Assembly: GCF_003048255.1 (NCBI RefSeq)
Contig: NZ_CP028487.1
Span: forward strand, 1,922,001-1,986,000
Length of the DNA stretch: 64,000 nucleotides
DNA from: Yersinia massiliensis
Lineage (GTDB): Bacteria; Pseudomonadota; Gammaproteobacteria; Enterobacterales; Enterobacteriaceae
Direction of reading: 5' to 3'
In this document: in pieces, positions 1 to 44,706 of the stretch
How the letters are laid out: every line of letters starts with the position of its first letter
How positions within the stretch are numbered: position 1 is the first letter of the stretch
The notes under the pieces: generated by a model
What the model was told of the DNA's origin: nothing
Seen by the model: the letters and a program-made list of their open reading frames with translations, nothing else
The model's database searches: none
Position numbers and translations under genes: made by a program

Positions 1-158
1 TATTCCGTGTGCCGGATCAACCATCAATGGATGGCAACACCGTCGATATGGACCGCGAACGTACTAATTTTGCCGATAACAGCCTGAAATATCAGACTGA
101 TTTGACTGTCATTAGCAGCCAAATCAAAGGGATGTTGTCAGTGTTACAACAAGGATAA
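1..158 (+). CDS. flgB: Flagellar proximal rod protein FlgB, C-terminal part
   Basis: The reading frame is open from the window edge to a TAA at 156-158 and encodes the last 51 residues of FlgB. The tail contains the family pattern [18 protein letters not shown], followed by a helix rich in I, S and V that packs in the rod coiled-coil. FlgB is the rod subunit nearest the MS ring and is exported by the flagellar type III apparatus. The 5' part lies outside the window. flgC starts 5 bases after the stop, so both are in one operon. Confidence 0.93.
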
Positions 159-163
159 GACGG

Positions 164-568
164 ATGTCTTTACTGAATATTTTTGATATTGCCGGTTCAG
201 CATTATCCGCGCAATCGCAACGATTGAACGTTAGCGCTAGCAACATGGCAAACGCCGACAGCGTGACTGGCCCAGATGGTCAGCCTTACCGCGCTAAGCA
301 AGTGGTGTTTCAGGTCGCCGCGCAACCGGGGCAAGAAACCGGTGGTGTGCGTGTGGCGCAAGTCATCGATGACCCCGCACCGGATCGTTTGGTGTTTCAA
401 CCCGGTAACCCATTGGCCGATGCCAAGGGGTATGTGCGTATGCCAAACGTGGATGTGACGGGCGAGATGGTCAACACCATTTCCGCTTCTCGCAGCTATC
501 AGGCCAACGTTGAAGTCCTGAATACCACCAAATCTCTGATGCTAAAGACGCTGACACTGGGTCAATAA
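164..568 (+). CDS. flgC: Flagellar proximal rod protein FlgC
   Basis: 134 residues, the usual FlgC length. The N-terminus ([20 protein letters not shown], then [12 protein letters not shown]) is the flagellar rod bb-rod domain. The C-terminus has the conserved [20 protein letters not shown] block shared by axial proteins. It builds the proximal rod with FlgB and FlgF across the periplasm. It sits tightly between flgB and flgD and is probably translated from the same class II transcript. Confidence 0.97.
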
Positions 569-6208: not shown

Positions 6209-7149
6209 TGAGTGATTTAATGGCGATGTCTGGGGCGGCTTATGACGCCCAATCACTGAATGCGTTGAAGCGTGATGCGGCAAAAGATCCCGAGGGTAAC
6301 CTGAAAAAGGTGGCTCAGCAGGTGGAGGGGATGTTTGTGCAGATGATGCTGAAAAGCATGCGCGCCGCTTTGCCGCAAGATGGCGTGATGAACAGTGATC
6401 AGACCCGGCTTTATACCTCCCTTTATGACCAGCAGATAGCACAACAAATGTCGGTTAAAGGGTTAGGGTTAGCCGACATGATGGTGGAACAGCTTTCAGG
6501 TACCACGTCGCCAAGTGAAACCGCGGGCACCGTGCCAATGGTGCTGGATAACGAAGTCTTGCAAACCTTACCGGCGCAGGCGTTAGAACAAATGGTCAGG
6601 CGGGCCATACCGACTCCGCCAGCCAGCGGTGGGATGTCCTTACCGCAAGGCCCCGGTAATTTCGTGGCACGGTTGTCGATTCCCGCCCAAATTGCTAGCC
6701 AGCAAAGTGGCATACCTCATCAACTAATTATGGCGCAGGCGGCACTCGAATCCGGTTGGGGCCAACGCGAAATCCCGACCGCTGATGGCAAGTCTAGCTA
6801 CAACGTCTTCGGCATCAAAGCAGGCAGTAACTGGGATGGGCCAGTGAGTGAAATTACCACCACTGAATATGAGCAAGGTGTGGCGACAAAAACTAAGGCG
6901 CGTTTCCGTGTTTATGGTTCTTACGTCGAGGCAGTCAGCGATTATGTCAAATTGCTGACCCAGAACCCGCGCTACGCCCATGTGGCGGCAGCACAAAGCC
7001 CTGAGCAGGGCGCACATGCACTGCAAAAAGCGGGCTATGCGACCGATCCGCAATATGCGCAAAAATTGGTCAGCGTCATTCAGCAGATGAAGAATGCGGG
7101 CGATCAAGCAGTGAAAGCCTACAGCAGCGATTTAACCAATCTCTTCTAG
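6208..7149 (+). CDS. flgJ: Rod cap and peptidoglycan hydrolase FlgJ
   Basis: 313 residues with two domains. Residues about 20-110 are the rod-binding/capping part (KKVAQQVEGMFVQMMLKSMR). Residues about 150-305 are a glucosaminidase domain with the catalytic-type motif AALESGWGQRE, Glu at about 181. FlgJ opens the peptidoglycan so the rod can pass and caps rod assembly. The ATG overlaps the flgI TGA. A GC-rich hairpin 30 bases after the stop may end or attenuate the flgB-flgJ transcript. Confidence 0.97.
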   Translation: MSDLMAMSGAAYDAQSLNALKRDAAKDPEGNLKKVAQQVEGMFVQMMLKSMRAALPQDGVMNSDQTRLYTSLYDQQIAQQMSVKGLGLADMMVEQLSGTTSPSETAGTVPMVLDNEVLQTLPAQALEQMVRRAIPTPPASGGMSLPQGPGNFVARLSIPAQIASQQSGIPHQLIMAQAALESGWGQREIPTADGKSSYNVFGIKAGSNWDGPVSEITTTEYEQGVATKTKARFRVYGSYVEAVSDYVKLLTQNPRYAHVAAAQSPEQGAHALQKAGYATDPQYAQKLVSVIQQMKNAGDQAVKAYSSDLTNLF

Positions 7150-7178
7150 TGGGCTAGGTGACGGGCCATGTTGGGATG

Positions 7179-7194
7179 GGGCCGTGCTCGGCCC
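7179..7194 (+). terminator. GC hairpin after flgJ, possible terminator or attenuator
   Basis: GGGCCG-TGCT-CGGCCC is a perfect 6-bp stem with a 4-base loop. There is no T-run after it, so it is not a textbook intrinsic terminator. It lies between the flgJ stop and the flgK promoter and could mark the end of the hook-basal-body operon. Confidence 0.4.
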
Positions 7195-7261
7195 TCATCA
7201 TTAGGATGGCGAGCACGACTTTACTCATTGGATTGATTGACAATAACACCCATATTTTTAC

Positions 7262-7288
7262 TCAAGTTTCTCTCTAACCGGTCGATAA
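7262..7288 (+). promoter_or_regulatory. Sigma-28 (FliA) promoter for flgKL
   Basis: TCAAGTTT, then exactly 11 bases, then GTCGATAA. The enterobacterial FliA consensus is TAAAGTTT-N11-GCCGATAA, so 14 of 16 positions agree with correct spacing. It lies about 100 bases upstream of flgK. This fits the known class III component of flgK and flgL expression after hook completion. Confidence 0.8.
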
Positions 7289-7390
7289 CTAATACAGGCT
7301 GTGCGGGGGCTTAGGTTTCCTCAGGCAGTATCCCAATATTAATCATTGCAGGTACGCGATATTAACCGCCTGCGGTAAAAGGATTTCTTT

Positions 7391-22247: not shown

Positions 22248-23537
22248 CTATCCAATTTTCTTATGGGGCATGAGTGGGGCATTTTGAGAAAATTTAGCAT
22301 TGATTAATGCCATTTGTTCATCATTACTGTCTGGCATCCATTCCCCGTAAACAGAGAAAACCATCTGTGCTGATGCGTGGCCCATCTGTGATGCAATGAA
22401 TGATGGGTTTGCCCCAGCAGATAGCAACCAACATGCGAAAGTATGGCGTGATTGATATGGCTTCCTTGACCTGATCCCTGCTCTCCTCAACGCTCCATTC
22501 CATATCTGTCCTAGCGATTCAGTTGAATAGTAGTCACCGCAAAGCTGGTTAGATGATGTAACTCTTGGTTTAAAAACAAAGGTGCAACTATCCTCCCTAG
22601 TCTTTCTCGCTTCTCTTGTATGGATCAGTATTTGATATTGTGGACCCATCCTGGTGTATAGCATTTGACTGCGCAGCGCTTCTTTTGCACTATCCGTAAG
22701 TTGAATAATACGATCAGTTCCCGCATCGGTTTTTGGTAAAGTAAACTGCTTAACTCGGGTAAGATTTCTCCTTACCATGATTGTTCCAGCTTCGAGATCT
22801 ATATCCTCCCATGCAAGAGCACAAAGCTCTCCATGCCGCATTCCTGTATATACAGCGAGTGTCCATAAATTTTTAATTTGCTGATGGGTGCAACCATCTA
22901 GCATTCTAAAAAACTCATCTCTTGTTAGAGGGTCTGGCTGTGGCTTACTCTTTCTTAATCTAACCAAATTTGAGGTTGGATCTGAATCAGAGTATCCATT
23001 CCCAGACGCAAACATAAATGCTGATTTAACACATGCAAGACAGTAGTTAACAGTTGGCACGGACCTCCCCCTCACCGCTGTAATCTGGTGACGCCTAGGT
23101 AGTTGCATCCCATTAAGCAACTCATTTCTCAACTTCAAAATGTCTTCATTTCTTATTGATGAAACCTGCCGTTCAGGGCCAAGCAGAATAGCTGCGGTTT
23201 TCAGTGTTGAGGTATACCTATCGTGGGTGTTTAGAGAAACCTCCGGCTCTTTCAGGGAAAGCCATTTGTTGAACAAATCCTGAACGGTAATACTCCTGAT
23301 TTCTGTGGTTGCATATTGTGATGCATTTGGTGACTCAGGGAACTGTTTTGCATAGTCAAAGGTCCCAGTCTTAATGGCGTACACAATTGAATACCGTAAA
23401 TCAGATGCAATTTTTCTGTTTTTAGGCGTATCAGGAACCCCAAGTGATTCCCTGCAACGCTTCTTTTGATACATAAACCAAATGCGTAGATATCCTCCAT
23501 GATGTTCTACGCCAGTTGGATACTGAGCTTTACTCAT
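22248..23537 (-). CDS. int: Phage tyrosine integrase
   Basis: 429 residues. An N-terminal arm-binding region (HHGGYLRIWFMYQKKRCRES) is followed by a SAM-like core-binding domain and a catalytic domain from about 210. Catalytic residues visible are Arg in YTGMRHGELCALAWEDIDLE, Arg-His in YQSRHTFACWLLSAG, His in MGHASAQMV and the likely Tyr nucleophile in VYGEWM. In box II the usual His of HxxR is Tyr, which occurs in this integrase subfamily. It recombines attP and attB and ends 36 bases from fliE. Confidence 0.96.
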   Translation of the reverse strand: MSKAQYPTGVEHHGGYLRIWFMYQKKRCRESLGVPDTPKNRKIASDLRYSIVYAIKTGTFDYAKQFPESPNASQYATTEIRSITVQDLFNKWLSLKEPEVSLNTHDRYTSTLKTAAILLGPERQVSSIRNEDILKLRNELLNGMQLPRRHQITAVRGRSVPTVNYCLACVKSAFMFASGNGYSDSDPTSNLVRLRKSKPQPDPLTRDEFFRMLDGCTHQQIKNLWTLAVYTGMRHGELCALAWEDIDLEAGTIMVRRNLTRVKQFTLPKTDAGTDRIIQLTDSAKEALRSQMLYTRMGPQYQILIHTREARKTREDSCTFVFKPRVTSSNQLCGDYYSTESLGQIWNGALRRAGIRSRKPYQSRHTFACWLLSAGANPSFIASQMGHASAQMVFSVYGEWMPDSNDEQMALINAKFSQNAPLMPHKKIG

Positions 23538-32527: not shown

Positions 32528-32875
32528 CTAAATTAACGGTATGCTGTGTCCGCGCTGTTTTTGACGAGCGTTGATTTGCTGGTCAAAGTTACCGCTAATT
32601 TTCATATTTGCGCGCTGGCGCTTCTCTGATGCTTTCTCAGCTAGTGCCACGTAAAACTCAGCGGCTTTCTCTATCTGCGCTCTGTATTCAAAGCTGATAG
32701 GCGTAATGGCGCTTTCTATGCGGCTGTTAGGCTTGCGGTTCAATCGCAGAGTTGGGCGCTTAACTTCGCGTGACTCTGGTTCTACGATGCCGTGTTGAGC
32801 GTTGTATGCTGCTGTCAGAGCTTTGCGCTTATCGTTACGGCGCTGTCTGGCGTTGTCATAACCTTGATGAGCCAT
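32528..32875 (-). CDS. Probable N-like transcription antiterminator
   Basis: 115 residues with an Arg-rich stretch near the N-terminus (NARQRRNDKRKALTAAYNAQ, residues about 8-27), the layout of lambda N and P22 N whose RNA-binding peptide is also N-terminal. It is the first gene of the pL operon, preceded by a strong GGAGGT ribosome site and, further upstream, by nutL with a boxB hairpin. Matching nutR lies beyond cro. Overall sequence similarity to N is not obvious, which is normal for N proteins. Alternative: an unrelated basic early protein. Confidence 0.6.
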   Translation of the reverse strand: MAHQGYDNARQRRNDKRKALTAAYNAQHGIVEPESREVKRPTLRLNRKPNSRIESAITPISFEYRAQIEKAAEFYVALAEKASEKRQRANMKISGNFDQQINARQKQRGHSIPLI

Positions 32876-33286: not shown

Positions 33287-33332
33287 TGCTATCCGTTTCG
33301 TACTTTTGGCGTCCTGCCGTGTCGATGGATTC

Positions 33333-33361
33333 ATAATAGTGCTACTAATTATTAAGGTCAA
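33333..33361 (-). promoter_or_regulatory. Leftward early promoter pL
   Basis: Read leftwards, TTGACC (33361-33356), exactly 17 bases, then TATTAT (33338-33333). This is close to the sigma-70 consensus, and both boxes overlap the operator repeats. Confidence 0.75.
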
Positions 33362-33403
33362 TAGTGCTTCTAATAATTATTTATAGTAGTGCTACTTATT
33401 ATT
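33335..33403. promoter_or_regulatory. Left operator OL, three repressor sites
   Basis: Three related words, AATAGTGCTACTAATTATT (33335), AATAGTGCTTCTAATAATTA (33360) and AGTAGTGCTACTTATTATT (33385), occur about 25 bases apart. The same word, inverted, appears in OR. Tandem triple sites are typical of lambdoid operators. Confidence 0.75.
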
Positions 33404-33516
33404 GATTTATATATGTATTTATTTTTTCAATGTAGTGGTTACCCTCAAACATCCAGCCGAAAAAACGTCGTCAAGTGTGCTAAATTGGGTGAAATTTATT
33501 CTTTGATGGGTGAGAT

Positions 33517-33723
33517 ATGGATAGCGAACAAGAGTTTTTCGAGCAGCAGCGGCCAGAAGTGGCGCAAGTTATCGGTACCGCAGTGATGCAGCTACTAACG
33601 GAAGGTGGGGAAGTGTCGAAGGAGTCGATAGCAGAGATGATAGAAGTGCTGTATCAGGAGGAACAGGTAACTTTAGCCGTCGAGTTAGCTATTGATATTC
33701 TGAGATTACCGCCAGAAGGCTGA
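33517..33723 (+). CDS. Small AriR/YmgB-like protein
   Basis: 68 residues, acidic, all-helical (RPEVAQVIGTAVMQLLTEGG, EVSKESIAEMIEVLYQEEQV). Spacing of hydrophobic residues resembles the biofilm/acid-resistance regulator family of AriR (YmgB). It reads rightwards between OL and the HipA-like/DUF3037 pair, unlike neighbours. The family call is moderate; the gene itself is well supported by its compact frame and ribosome site. Confidence 0.55.
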   Translation: MDSEQEFFEQQRPEVAQVIGTAVMQLLTEGGEVSKESIAEMIEVLYQEEQVTLAVELAIDILRLPPEG

Positions 33724-33733
33724 TTACAGACAT

Positions 33734-33762
33734 AAAAAAGCCCACACGGGACGCGGTGGGCA
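33734..33762 (-). terminator. Intrinsic terminator, minus strand
   Basis: Read leftwards, GCCCACCGCGTCCCGTGTGGGC is followed by TTTTTT. It is the second of two terminators below the DUF3037 gene. Confidence 0.65.
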
Positions 33763-33849
33763 AAGGTAAAGACTAAGTTTATATATTTGTAATCCCTGAT
33801 GTTGTGCTCTTAGCGTAGATGAGTTTCTTTACATAGCAAGTTACAGGCA

Positions 33850-33877
33850 CAAAAAACCCGGCAGCGGGGCCGGGTTA
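33850..33877 (-). terminator. Intrinsic terminator below the DUF3037 gene
   Basis: Read leftwards, AACCCGGCCCCGCTGCCGGGTT followed by TTTTT directly after the DUF3037 stop. It isolates the cI-linked transcript from the pL operon. Confidence 0.8.
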
Positions 33878-33882
33878 GGTGA

Positions 33883-34689
33883 TTAATGAAGCGGGGATGC
33901 GGCGTTCATCATTTTCTCATAATAAACCATCATATCATCGCGACTAAATGCATTTATTAAGTTATCAGTATGCTTTCCCAATAAGTTTAACTGATGTTTA
34001 GCGCTATTTTCTTGGGCCATTGTTTCTGCTGCATAAATTACAAATGAATCTATATTATTACTATATATTTCAACGGCTTTATTTATTGTTAATGCGCTAA
34101 TAGCCGCTTCACCCATCTGCTTCTTTACGTTTTCCGTTCTAAAATCTAGTGTTTCTGTTAAATGATATTTCCCATTCTTTAACAAGAAATCAGCCACAAG
34201 CCCCTCTTCTGCGCTGATCGGGTAATTTGCCACAACCTTATGTTCAAAAATATCCTCACTATATTTTCCAAGGATACCTTGCTTACTGAACATATCCCTA
34301 ATATCAAAGAATATTTTCTTGTTTACGCGTTTATATGGTTTTTTGTGGGGGTTGACCAGTCGATTCATCAATTCATTCAGCTTTGCTTCATAGTTATCGC
34401 TACTACCTACAGTGAAAACGCCAAACTCAGATAGCGATAATGACCCCTTAAAAAGCCGTGGAAGCATTTTTATATCATTAATGGCGCTCGATAAATGAAA
34501 CAGGTTACCCGTCAGTTCTTCAAGATAATTCAGGTCAAGGCTTTTATCTATTGCTCTAAGTTTTGAAACAGAATGCAGCATCCGCACATCGATATCTTCG
34601 TCCAGATATACAATTAGCCCAACATTAATCGTTTCGCCTTTTTCGAGATTTGGCGTTATTCTGATTAAGCTGTACTTAAATGTTTTCAT
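33883..34689 (-). CDS. DUF3037 protein, partner of HipA-like kinase
   Basis: 268 residues. The start KTFKYSLIRITPNLEKGETI, then NVGLIVYLDEDIDVRMLHSV is the DUF3037 signature. It overlaps the kinase gene by 4 bases, so both are coupled. DUF3037 proteins are commonly encoded next to HipA-like kinases; their biochemical role is not known to me. It is A+T rich compared with the flanking phage genes, suggesting recent acquisition. Together with the kinase it occupies the rexAB position downstream of cI. Confidence 0.8.
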   Translation of the reverse strand: MKTFKYSLIRITPNLEKGETINVGLIVYLDEDIDVRMLHSVSKLRAIDKSLDLNYLEELTGNLFHLSSAINDIKMLPRLFKGSLSLSEFGVFTVGSSDNYEAKLNELMNRLVNPHKKPYKRVNKKIFFDIRDMFSKQGILGKYSEDIFEHKVVANYPISAEEGLVADFLLKNGKYHLTETLDFRTENVKKQMGEAAISALTINKAVEIYSNNIDSFVIYAAETMAQENSAKHQLNLLGKHTDNLINAFSRDDMMVYYEKMMNAASPLH

Positions 34690-35531
34690 GAACTTATCTC
34701 CAAGCGTATGGCATTTATTCGTTCTGTTTTACCCTCTCCTGCCCACCATTTTATTAGATAATCTTTATGCATGGGAGGCATCCAGTCTTCTGGCATACCA
34801 TTAAGTATATCAGAGATGGCATCTACACCTATTCTTTCTATCTTGTCAAGAACGTTTAGCCCCACTTTCCTTAGTTCTTCGGTATCACCGATAAACTGTT
34901 TTGCTATACTCCAATTGATACAGGTGCTTGAATCCGTAGGGAGTGTGCTTGTTGTACTTCTTGGCCAGCCAATGACAAATGAACTCAAACTAAAATCAAA
35001 AGTCTTGACGATAACTTGGTCTCGGCTATTTTTCATGTATAGATAATTATTGAAATGTCTATCTATGTTATGCACGAACTGATCGAACGCATAAATAGCC
35101 CACAACTGCTTTTTTAGTGACTCATTCGCGGTGAACAGTATCGATATCCATTGAGCATCATTAAGTCCGCTCTTCCAAGCAGAAAGCTCAATTCTTGACC
35201 CAAAAACATATTCGCCGTCTGATATACATTTCAATACTTTACATACTGGAGTCGCTATACCGCATCTCTCCGCCAAATTTGTACAGAACCATTCTGCCGC
35301 TGGGACTTGAGAGGGGTTCTGAACTGGAATCGTGATATTACTTGTTGAACCTTTTACTGCATATTCCATTTCATCACTGGCGATAGCGAAGCCAGAAAGG
35401 TGCGCAGTCCCGAGGCTTGATGGGGTATAGTCATTAAATTCTAGCTCGAAAAGATTGCCTTGCTCTGGTGCTTCATTCTGGCTTGGATCATCTTCTTTTT
35501 CCAATTTCTTCCCTCCCCACATTGCTGACAT
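34686..35531 (-). CDS. HipA-like kinase
   Basis: 281 residues. It has a kinase-like catalytic loop HNIDRHFNNYLYMKN (Asp at about 157, Asn at about 161) and a downstream VKTFDFSLSSF that would be the metal-binding Asp (about 179). This is the HipA-type NxDRHxxN pattern. The N-terminus has FAIASDEMEYAVKGSTSNIT, a nucleotide-binding-like region. No HipB-like antitoxin lies nearby; the partner is DUF3037. It reads in the direction of cI, 84 bases below it, so it is probably expressed in the lysogen from pRM. Confidence 0.8.
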   Translation of the reverse strand: MSAMWGGKKLEKEDDPSQNEAPEQGNLFELEFNDYTPSSLGTAHLSGFAIASDEMEYAVKGSTSNITIPVQNPSQVPAAEWFCTNLAERCGIATPVCKVLKCISDGEYVFGSRIELSAWKSGLNDAQWISILFTANESLKKQLWAIYAFDQFVHNIDRHFNNYLYMKNSRDQVIVKTFDFSLSSFVIGWPRSTTSTLPTDSSTCINWSIAKQFIGDTEELRKVGLNVLDKIERIGVDAISDILNGMPEDWMPPMHKDYLIKWWAGEGKTERINAIRLEISS

Positions 35532-35615
35532 GGCAACCTCTTAATAAAGTTTATTATGTAAAAACAGCTAACTCTTAGTTAAATATTACCCACCCCTCTA
35601 TGGGCTAGCAGTGGG

Positions 35616-36329
35616 TTAGCTGTCCAAATCTTCCCACGTAGCATCGATAACTTTACCGATGATGCGGCAGTCCTCATCGATTACCGTCAATGGCCAAGAT
35701 GGATTAAGCGGTTTAAGGAAGTGATCCCCCGCGTCCTCAACGTATTTCTTGAAGGTGGCTGCTTTTTTGTTCGTCAAATATGCAACACATAAATCACCAT
35801 CGTGAACAGCCCTGTCAGGGTCAACAAGAATGAGCATGCCCTCTGGGAAGCTAACCCCTACAGGAGCCGTCATTGAGTCGCCTTTAACTTCCAGCCAAAA
35901 TGCGTTATTCCCGGCTCTTTTAGTGGAGTCCACTAACCTGATGGCATCTCTTTCAGTGAATGACCCATCAATCTCGCTAAATGCTCCAGCCTGAACCCAA
36001 CTAATCAATGGGTAACCATAAGCTGGAGTCGGATCCTTATAATTAGTTGTCTGTGCCGTTGCCCTTACATGTGCAAGCAGTGGCCCGATAGATGGATTAA
36101 TTTCCTCCGGTGCTACATCAAGCAGCGCAGAGAATTTGAGGATATTTTCTGTGTTAAGAGAAGTCTTGCCATTAAGGAATTGGCTTATAGCTGCTTGAGT
36201 GCTAAAACCAAGTATTCCCGCCGCCTTTTCCTGGCTAAGTCCTAACTGGTCTTTTTTTCTATCCCAAATTTGCTTTAAGCGATCCGCAATTTTCAAGTCT
36301 TCTTCAGTAATTACATTTTTCTTTGCCAT
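35616..36329 (-). CDS. cI: CI-type repressor with S24 peptidase domain
   Basis: 237 residues from the ATG at 36329; the frame continues upstream only to a TTG at 36365 inside the operator. The HTH is QLGLSQEKAAGILGFSTQAA at about residues 28-47. An Ala-Gly cleavage site is in SWVQAGAFS. The S24/LexA catalytic Ser is in VKGDSMTAPVG and the Lys is in AATFKKYV. It maintains lysogeny by binding OL and OR and is inactivated by RecA-stimulated self-cleavage. Confidence 0.95.
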   Translation of the reverse strand: MAKKNVITEEDLKIADRLKQIWDRKKDQLGLSQEKAAGILGFSTQAAISQFLNGKTSLNTENILKFSALLDVAPEEINPSIGPLLAHVRATAQTTNYKDPTPAYGYPLISWVQAGAFSEIDGSFTERDAIRLVDSTKRAGNNAFWLEVKGDSMTAPVGVSFPEGMLILVDPDRAVHDGDLCVAYLTNKKAATFKKYVEDAGDHFLKPLNPSWPLTVIDEDCRIIGKVIDATWEDLDS

Positions 36330-36420
36330 GCTCGCGACTTTATTCGTATTGCTAATAATTAACAAATAGTGCAGCTATTGCTTTTCTTAATCAGTAGCAC
36401 TAATATTGTCGTATCTAGCA
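36330..36420. promoter_or_regulatory. Right operator OR
   Basis: Three sites related to OL occur here: ATTGCTAATAATT (about 36347), AATAGTGCAGCTATTG (about 36365) and CAGTAGCACTAATATTG (about 36392). The last contains the inverse of the OL word. They lie between divergent cI and cro starts, as required for a lambda-type switch. Confidence 0.75.
36378..36406 (+). promoter_or_regulatory. Rightward early promoter pR
   Basis: TTGCTT (36378), exactly 17 bases, then TAATAT (36401). The -10 box and its upstream part overlap an operator site. It should drive cro, cII and the replication genes. Confidence 0.7.
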
Positions 36421-36433
36421 AATGGAGATAGAT

Positions 36434-36673
36434 ATGAATCTGAATGATTACCTAAAACAGAACGGCATTAGCCAAGCTGACTATGCAGTTGCTGCCGGTG
36501 TTACTCAGGGTTTTGTTAGTCAAGTTATTGCTGGTCGTTACAAACCAAAGGGACGCAAGGCCATTCAATGGTCAGAGGCAACCAATTGGGCGGTAACACC
36601 CCATGAATTAAACAGTGATGACTACCCGAACAAAACTGACGGGTTACCTACAAATCAACTTAACGCCGCTTAA
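36434..36673 (+). CDS. cro: Cro-like repressor
   Basis: 79 residues from the ATG at 36434, preceded by GGAG at a good distance; the ATG at 36422 lacks a ribosome site. The HTH is ISQADYAVAAGVTQGFVSQV, IAGRYKPKGRKAIQWSE, the pattern of Cro/YdaS-type proteins. It would repress pRM and the early promoters. Position directly after pR supports it. Confidence 0.85.
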   Translation: MNLNDYLKQNGISQADYAVAAGVTQGFVSQVIAGRYKPKGRKAIQWSEATNWAVTPHELNSDDYPNKTDGLPTNQLNAA

Positions 36674-36680
36674 TCACCGC

Positions 36681-36711
36681 CGCTCATTAAATCCTCTGCG
36701 CTGAAAAGCGC
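36681..36711 (+). promoter_or_regulatory. nutR: boxA and boxB of the right antitermination site
   Basis: boxA CGCTCATTAAAT (36681-36692) and boxB GCGCTGAAAAGCGC (36698-36711). boxB is identical to that of nutL, and the position between cro and cII is that of lambda nutR. Confidence 0.85.
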
Positions 36712-36770
36712 CCATCAAAACTAAATCCCCAGACCATCGGGGAGGAACAACAACATTCAAATCACAAGGG

Positions 36771-36803
36771 AAGAGTACGCAATGGAACGTGCAAGTAACA
36801 GCA
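36771..36803 (-). promoter_or_regulatory. CII-activated promoter pRE
   Basis: On the minus strand TTGC-TGTTAC-TTGC (36803-36790) is the CII box TTGC-N6-TTGC. The 6-base middle fits the -35, and TACTCT lies 17 bases further (36776-36771). In lambda the pRE box also overlaps the 5' end of cII. Confidence 0.75.
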
Positions 36804-37072
36804 AGAGAATTATGGAAGTTGAATCTGAGCTACGAAGCCGAATGGCTATCAAGGGACAGAGCAAGTTTGCGCGGGAGGCTGGCTGGGCCGAATCAAAGGT
36901 AAGCCGGTTAAACGTACATGACATGGCAGTGACGTTTGTTCTTCTGGAGAAGATATGGGAGACGAGCGTAATAAGGGAAATCGCAAGGCAGGCTGTGATT
37001 GCGGTGACCGGAAAGCAAAAAGCCCCGATGGCAGTCGAGGCTTCAGAACAACAGATAACTATGTCTTTCTAG
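36782..37072 (+). CDS. cII: CII-like transcription activator
   Basis: 96 residues with the plan of lambda CII: ANKR-like start (RASNSKRIMEVESELRSRMA), HTH KFAREAGWAESKVSRL, and a C-terminus ending QQITMSF like the lambda tail. It activates pRE and so favours lysogeny. A direct repeat of the CII target overlaps its first codons. AAGGGAAGAG precedes the ATG. Confidence 0.92.
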   Translation: MERASNSKRIMEVESELRSRMAIKGQSKFAREAGWAESKVSRLNVHDMAVTFVLLEKIWETSVIREIARQAVIAVTGKQKAPMAVEASEQQITMSF

Positions 37073-44612: not shown

Positions 44613-44706
44613 CTATATAATACTAAGTGGCTAGGGTAGCTCCCGAAAAGCGGCATCGTCACCGCCTGCCTCTTAATCAATGACGAGCAACTAGACGAGG
44701 TTGTAT

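Follow-up and report, generated by a model that had tools for sequence, protein, structure and literature searches.

A HipA-like kinase and DUF3037 protein pair behind the cI repressor of a Yersinia prophage, a probable toxin-antitoxin defence cassette related to HipAD

In a stretch of 64,000 nucleotides from Yersinia massiliensis (contig NZ_CP028487.1, positions 1,922,001 to 1,986,000; here called the window), a gene for a HipA-like kinase and a gene for a DUF3037 protein occupy the rexAB position of a lambdoid prophage. We consider it highly probable that this pair is a prophage-borne toxin-antitoxin defence cassette and a diverged relative of the HipAD system; the anti-phage function itself we infer by analogy. 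The support comes from the kinase fold and its intact catalytic residues, the gene order and slot of the Escherichia coli phage PhiR5_1, the defence provided by homologous pairs, and the substitutions seen in the slot.

Both open reading frames (ORFs) that an earlier note had named from the letters alone are present on the minus strand and share 4 nt (ATGA). As that note had described, the kinase gene starts 84 nt below the end of cI (35616) on the same strand, and the pair ends at two minus-strand terminators just before the operator region (OL). Terminator-like sites numbered 7 in the region against 3.4 expected. A 68-aa plus-strand ORF between the terminators and OL is an addition to what the note listed. 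The assignment to the rexAB slot is upheld by the order of cI, terminators, OL and an N-like gene and by the presence of HipAD in the same slot of PhiR5_1. The pair is also A+T rich, as had been remarked, with a G+C content of 38.9% compared with 45.0% for cI, 47.2% for cro-cII, 46.6% for N-OL and 46.3% for window positions 22248-64000.

The profile search proposed in the earlier note placed both proteins above the Pfam cut-offs, HipA_2 at 29.8 bits (cut-off 27) and DUF3037 at 39.9 bits (cut-off 22.6), and so gave the kinase-fold match on which its interpretation depended. The kinase also matched phrog_3162, a phage family of unknown function, over residues 30-278 with 186 bits. Its catalytic loop, read correctly before as an NxDRHxxN type, is N-I-D-R-H-F-N-N, and the metal motif is D-F-S. 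Residues K59, N154, D156, R157, N161 and D178 (the numbering omits the initial Met) were invariant in all 35 aligned sequences, the window's included, and the structure model of the kinase resembles CtkA, HipA and HipT.

The second protein matched phrog_5137, likewise a phage family of unknown function, with 210 bits over residues 1-263. The earlier statement that no HipB-like antitoxin is nearby was right in the literal sense, in that the partner gave no helix-turn-helix (HTH) match in Pfam and no HTH gene lies closer than cI and cro. The antitoxin of the kinase, however, is very probably the DUF3037 protein itself. The pair thus differs from HipBA and HipBST in having a DUF3037 partner instead of the HTH antitoxin HipB. 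Among 33 aligned partners, counting that of the window, 19 columns were invariant, 13 of them in the second half (H150, K151, G163, A166, L169, L170, N172, G173, H176, E179, D182, T201 and N246), and D167 was kept in 31 of the 33. When profiles of the window-branch and HipAD-type DUF3037 proteins were compared, only residues 2-137 aligned (E 2e-8), and therefore the N-terminal half appears to be shared while the C-terminal half has seemingly been exchanged or is too diverged. The model of the C-terminal half resembles restriction-endonuclease-like domains (PspGI, BsoBI, Cdn1/Can2, EndoMS and XisH), which is suggestive of a restriction-endonuclease fold. Two residues after E179, at what we take to be the site of the canonical lysine, the aligned partners carry L, I or V. 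A DUF1829 match was found neither in the window partner at E<=1 nor in the HipD-type protein at E<=0.01.

The closest known system is HipAD, also called DS-6 (PDC-M66 in PADLOC). According to PMC13092281, where HipAD is credited to Brenes and Laub 2025, DS-6/HipAD defends against phage and loses this defence upon catalytic mutation; DS-6B is reported there to have a DUF1829 region and, in a model, to touch DNA. In both HipAD and the window a HipA_2 kinase is followed by a DUF3037 protein. PhiR5_1 (PV340545), whose annotation reads 'HipA toxin' and 'HipD antitoxin', has the order cI, HipA, HipD, Kil, Gam, Bet, so that its pair lies directly behind cI and before kil-gam-bet. A HipAD-type DUF3037 protein encoded behind an E. 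coli cI (locus L107) is 99.6% identical to PhiR5_1 HipD, and the HipAD and window types are both found behind the same E. coli cI and both in the Yersinia slot. Profiles of the two kinase branches align from about residue 48 to 254 (E 6e-12). The branches are nevertheless far apart: where BLAST links them at all, some kinases of the window's wider family are 24-30% identical to HipAD-type kinases, phmmer, queried with the HipAD kinase, missed the window-branch kinases of L024 and L070, and the C-terminal half of the window partner could not be aligned with that of HipD. The E. coli HipAD-type partner matched a PDC-M66 model over residues 12-276 with 57 bits, whereas these models are weak on the window pair. 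Because the PADLOC models barely see the pair and the second half of the partner is unmatched, we do not file it as a plain member; judged by sequence, it is a diverged relative, or distant branch, of HipAD.

Other systems resemble the pair in part. The Retron-Sda1 locus also has a HipA kinase and DUF3037 pair, although there it adjoins a retron reverse transcriptase and not a phage repressor. As described in PMC12548924, deletion of the kinase abolished defence against Bas51, deletion of the DUF3037 gene was toxic, and the authors likened the C-terminal part to a retron DNA-binding protein; together with the DUF1829 region and DNA contact of DS-6B, this likeness would fit a swappable C-terminal half. 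Lambda rexAB and the 933W kinase Stk are recorded as sharing a slot behind cI, expression with cI and phage exclusion, and the 933W tyrosine kinase, cotranscribed with cI, is stated to abort HK97 (PMC3564112). With RexAB the window pair has its position in common; its Pfam matches are to the HipA and DUF3037 families, and it differs from Stk in that its kinase gave no Pkinase match in Pfam at E<=1; a kinase with a Pkinase match (152 bits) does occur in another slot, L185. BstA, reported as an abortive defence protein encoded behind a lambdoid prophage repressor, is a single protein with a DNA self-immunity element, and the window pair has no BstA match in PADLOC. PMC8585504, which places rexAB and BstA between cI and n, describes this region as a hotspot of mosaic diversity. 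Given HipAD in PhiR5_1 and the homologous phage-defending pairs that need their kinase, exclusion or abortive infection, as first suggested in the earlier note, is the best-supported reading of the pair.

We collected 39 related loci, not all independent, on 33 viral contigs (one being the window's own virus), in two E. coli genomes and in four other genomes, with kinases about 39-100% identical to that of the window. The DUF3037 gene follows at a 4-nt overlap in 38 of them; the remaining one is probably L052, where the ORF was called from an earlier start. In this neighbourhood comparison, of the kind suggested in the earlier note, a repressor-like gene lies directly upstream on the same strand in 36 of the 39; it was recognised with a profile built on two cI proteins that had been verified in Pfam. 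About a third of these 36 matches are low-scoring (42-53 bits); one that was checked proved to be an HTH protein of 131 aa that matches Phage_CI_repr but has no peptidase domain. The exceptions are L041, whose contig starts 1 kb upstream, L046, and L056, which has an SRAP gene in the upstream position. Since the overlap is present in 38 and the upstream repressor-like gene in 36 of 39 loci, the arrangement is not due to chance. Both the catalytic and further positions are preserved in relatives of 70-88% identity from other genera.

In the window's order, 15 of 394 genomes had a DUF3037 match; a repressor adjoins the pair in three of them (the window, G130 and G085), and none was recognised in the remaining 12, of which about 3 to 12 kb each was read. 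Window-type DNA was found in 24 of 5426 E. coli genomes by a distant search (60-80% identity band) and HipAD-type DNA in 283 of 5426 by a near search. Two of the 24 were examined, and in both the pair is directly behind the same cI as the HipAD type and before kil, gam and bet.

The slot that holds the pair is bounded in Yersinia prophages by a constant 21-bp element on the cI side and a constant terminator on the other (Table 1). The element stays the same between differing repressors and differing cargoes. Exact copies were found on 48 viral contigs and in 11 of 25 genomes of the genus, and none in the 243 genomes of other genera among the 246 family genomes tested; a reversed-pattern control gave none in either the genus (25) or the family (246) search. 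With up to 3 mismatches, near-copies appeared in 12 of the 25 genus genomes, at which setting the reversed control gave two. Copies are present in the window, L180-L227, L083 and L239-L247. The 59 copies include 53 distinct contexts, which diverge on both sides of the element. Upstream there is a repressor-type ORF in 43 of the 59 (19 groups at 80% identity), another ORF in 4, and no ORF of at least 120 aa within 1.1 kb in 12. The majority consensus preceding the element, CTAACCCACT, includes the stop codon of the window's cI. A second stretch, approximately AACAAATACAGCGAATCTGGCAAAGACCGGAGCGC, follows the element in L184, L185, L189, L198, L217, L218, L221 and L242 and is perhaps a second linker or leader.

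The 22-nt core of the first terminator recurs 3' of unrelated cargo. It was scored for the first 50 element copies (48 viral loci, L222 being the window's own virus, one genus genome and the window) as a match with at most 3 mismatches within 5.5 kb, and it was found 0.8-2.8 kb after the element in 36 of the 50. Of the 14 copies without it, 11 had 1.3 kb or less of downstream sequence, and no core was present in the available downstream sequence of L189 (5.5 kb), L190 (3.4 kb) and L196 (3.1 kb). In the genus genomes the core follows the element in 11 of 11 at up to 2 mismatches. The listings of literature searches on lambdoid boundary sequences and on Yersinia prophage defence hotspots showed no account of the 21-bp border, which is weak evidence of absence.

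Between these borders, the 36 delimited slots carry 25 cargo types as judged by DNA. A further 14 types were found in 50 delimited loci behind a cI that is common in E. coli; these came from 82 loci (the best 80 of 335, plus L018 and L019) by a hand-loosened terminator pattern, with 32 dropped. Both sets share the protein families of the window-type pair and of five further single genes or pairs. Of the 39 cargo types, 38 have their longest ORF on the strand of the repressor; in the sole exception, L225, a 339-aa ORF (by eye a ParA-type ATPase) opposes it.

Repressors at least 90% identical to that of the window carry four cargo types. The clearest replacement is in L083, of the same genus, where window positions 35599-36794 (cI to cro) are 97% identical and 33298-33878 (OL, the 68-aa ORF and the terminators) 96% identical, while three genes replace the pair. 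These include a HigB_toxin match (92 bits) and PADLOC matches to PD-Lambda-2_A (109 bits), PD-Lambda-2_B (163 bits over 121 of 402 profile positions) and PD-T4-9_C (49 bits). A PD-Lambda-2-like system with a HigB-type toxin, not a kinase, thus sits in the identical slot beside a 97% identical cI. L083 also has about 130 bp extra between cI and the element (7115-7342), with a small membrane-protein-like ORF and a partial repeat of the border sequence. In another genome of the genus, G572, a HipAD-type pair fills the slot, its proteins being 47 and 55% identical to the E. coli ones.

Representatives of the slot proteins matched BstA (1e-119; one representative), PD-Lambda-5_B (1e-121) and PD-T4-6. 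Altogether, 51 slot proteins (one per family of at least 75 aa) matched 156 PADLOC models at E<=1e-5, the 25 listed including BstA, PD-Lambda-5_B, PD-T4-6, PD-Lambda-2, PDC-S42, PDC-M63, PDC-M66 and methyltransferases, compared with 13 models for 50 flank proteins (HTH_VI, oMTase, PDC-S57, DrmD, MTase_II, PD-Lambda-1 and RmrA among the names). Of 139 flank families, 62 had at least two members, and the first 50 of these made up the flank set. The contrast is rough because the models are redundant, the counts are of models and not of members with a hit, and singletons were kept among slot proteins, not among flank proteins. The cargo of L214 (9490-12196), which encodes an AAA_21 ATPase and, by eye, a DNA adenine methyltransferase, could be a defence system of two genes. 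In Yersinia phage vB_YenM_30.14 (L072) the slot has three small genes, of which one matched a zinc ribbon weakly and none matched PADLOC at E<=0.1.

We hypothesize that the lysogen transcribes the pair with cI, from pRM, and that the DUF3037 protein, as HipAD and Sda1 would suggest, binds and restrains the kinase. Infection by a second phage would upset this hold via the variable C-terminal half, and the freed kinase would phosphorylate a host target, so that growth stops and the incoming phage is aborted. The cassette may have been set behind cI by module exchange between the border element and the terminator; the exchange pattern itself is visible by comparison, with recombination as its presumed cause. 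A bolder version, which we regard as tentative and rather doubtful, joins these observations: the DUF3037 protein would be a modular guard whose N-terminal half holds the kinase and whose C-terminal half is a swappable infection reader. In the window's branch this reader, of restriction-endonuclease fold, would bind phage DNA or a replication intermediate and free the kinase, and whole cassettes, of this and many other kinds, would be swapped behind differing repressors through the 21-bp linker and the terminator under the lysogen promoter. As the acidic residues are conserved but the lysine of an ExK motif is missing, such a reader would bind and not cut.

Several results weigh against the defence reading. 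No experiment on the window branch was found in the literature, and tblastn gave no match to this branch among 50,697 phage records, a set that may lack those close to the window's genome; with cI as query, 399 of the records matched. At the cI end, a 9-bp inverted repeat followed by five T (35564-35623) could lessen read-through from cI; it was not called a terminator because its fold z-score is only -1.2. Around the pair, promoter-like sites are about as frequent as expected by chance. In PADLOC, the kinase matched PDC-M03A best (27 bits) and PDC-M66A with 17.2 bits (E 5.5e-4), and the sole match of the partner was a weak one to PDC-M66B (30.5 bits, residues 1-73 only). Profile comparison gave no alignment to HipD for the second half of the partner, so sensing or neutralisation may differ from that of HipAD, and some slot cargo matched neither PADLOC nor Pfam in the searches run.

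The same toxin-antitoxin architecture would also serve an addiction module or growth regulator, whose kinase would kill or arrest cells once the prophage is lost and play no part in infection. The toxicity of a DUF3037 deletion in a relative and the HicA-type and HigB-type toxins that share the slot fit such a module, but two homologous pairs defend against phage and the slot also holds the BstA, PD-Lambda-5_B and PD-T4-6 matches, and we consider this explanation improbable. Still less probable is a part in lysogenic conversion or in the control of induction, with the kinase tuning host physiology or the induction decision. A precedent is 434 Hex, which is encoded on the cI transcript and, according to PMC3564112, shields the repressor from RecA-mediated cleavage; the diversity of cargo, with four types behind repressors at least 90% identical to the window's, is better explained by phage competition than by a role tied to one repressor. 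That the pair is a decayed or silent passenger without present function would agree with its A+T richness and its patchy occurrence in E. coli, but both ORFs are intact and the relatives in other genera have kept the catalytic and other positions, which makes this the least likely of the explanations. A defence cassette remains our preferred interpretation.

The coordinates of the locus are collected in Table 1. Elsewhere in the window, positions 1-21539 read as flagellar genes as far as a fliF-like ORF, and an integrase-like ORF comes next at 22248-23537 (names by eye), so that the prophage lies in or beside a flagellar cluster. Among named FlgK proteins, those of Y. mollaretii (94%) and Y. 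aleksiciae (93%) are the closest, which points to a Yersinia host. An Rfam int-alpA RNA (42.6 bits) was found within the prophage at 44624-44688 on the plus strand.

Table 1. Features of the cI-OL region, in window coordinates.
Feature	Position	Strand	Remarks
HipA_2-like kinase gene	34686..35531	-	281 aa; predicted toxin/effector
DUF3037 protein gene	33883..34689	-	268 aa; predicted antitoxin/sensor
DUF3037 protein halves	residues ~2-137; ~123-268		N-terminal DUF3037; seemingly different C-terminal half, restriction-endonuclease-like in model
cI repressor	35616..36326	-	HTH_3 + Peptidase_S24; scanned as 236-aa stretch; upstream, co-directional
cI-kinase gap	35532..35615	-	84 nt; holds border element and most of the 9-bp inverted repeat
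21-bp border element GCTAGCCCATAGAGGGGTGGG	35589..35609	-	6 nt beyond cI stop codon
Intrinsic terminator, second slot border	33855..33876	-	8 pairs, T-rich tail; core AACCCGGCCCCGCTGCCGGGTT
Second terminator-like hairpin	33742..33756	-	
68-aa ORF (phrog_3946)	33517..33723	+	between terminators and OL; separate from pair
OL-like operator array	33329..33403	.	three 25-nt direct repeats
pL-like promoter match	33361-33333	-	
N-like antitermination gene	32528..32875	-	phrog_271, 24.8 bits
cro-like HTH gene	36422..36673	+	
cII-like gene	36782..37072	+	Phage_CII

Taken together, that the slot is a hotspot, that it can hold a kinase and that it can hold HipAD were already known; what appears to be new is the constant 21-bp element and terminator that border the Yersinia slot, with 36 delimited slots and 25 cargo types between them. 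The pair widens the range of HipAD-like systems past what PADLOC models detect well and places two distant HipA/DUF3037 branches in the same slot of two host groups. The two borders offer a simple DNA handle for extracting slot contents; several cargo types have no known function, and each is a candidate for defence, probably under the promoter of the repressor. If the C-terminal domain of the DUF3037 protein is a DNA reader, the question of what triggers HipAD-like systems would become directly testable by domain swaps.
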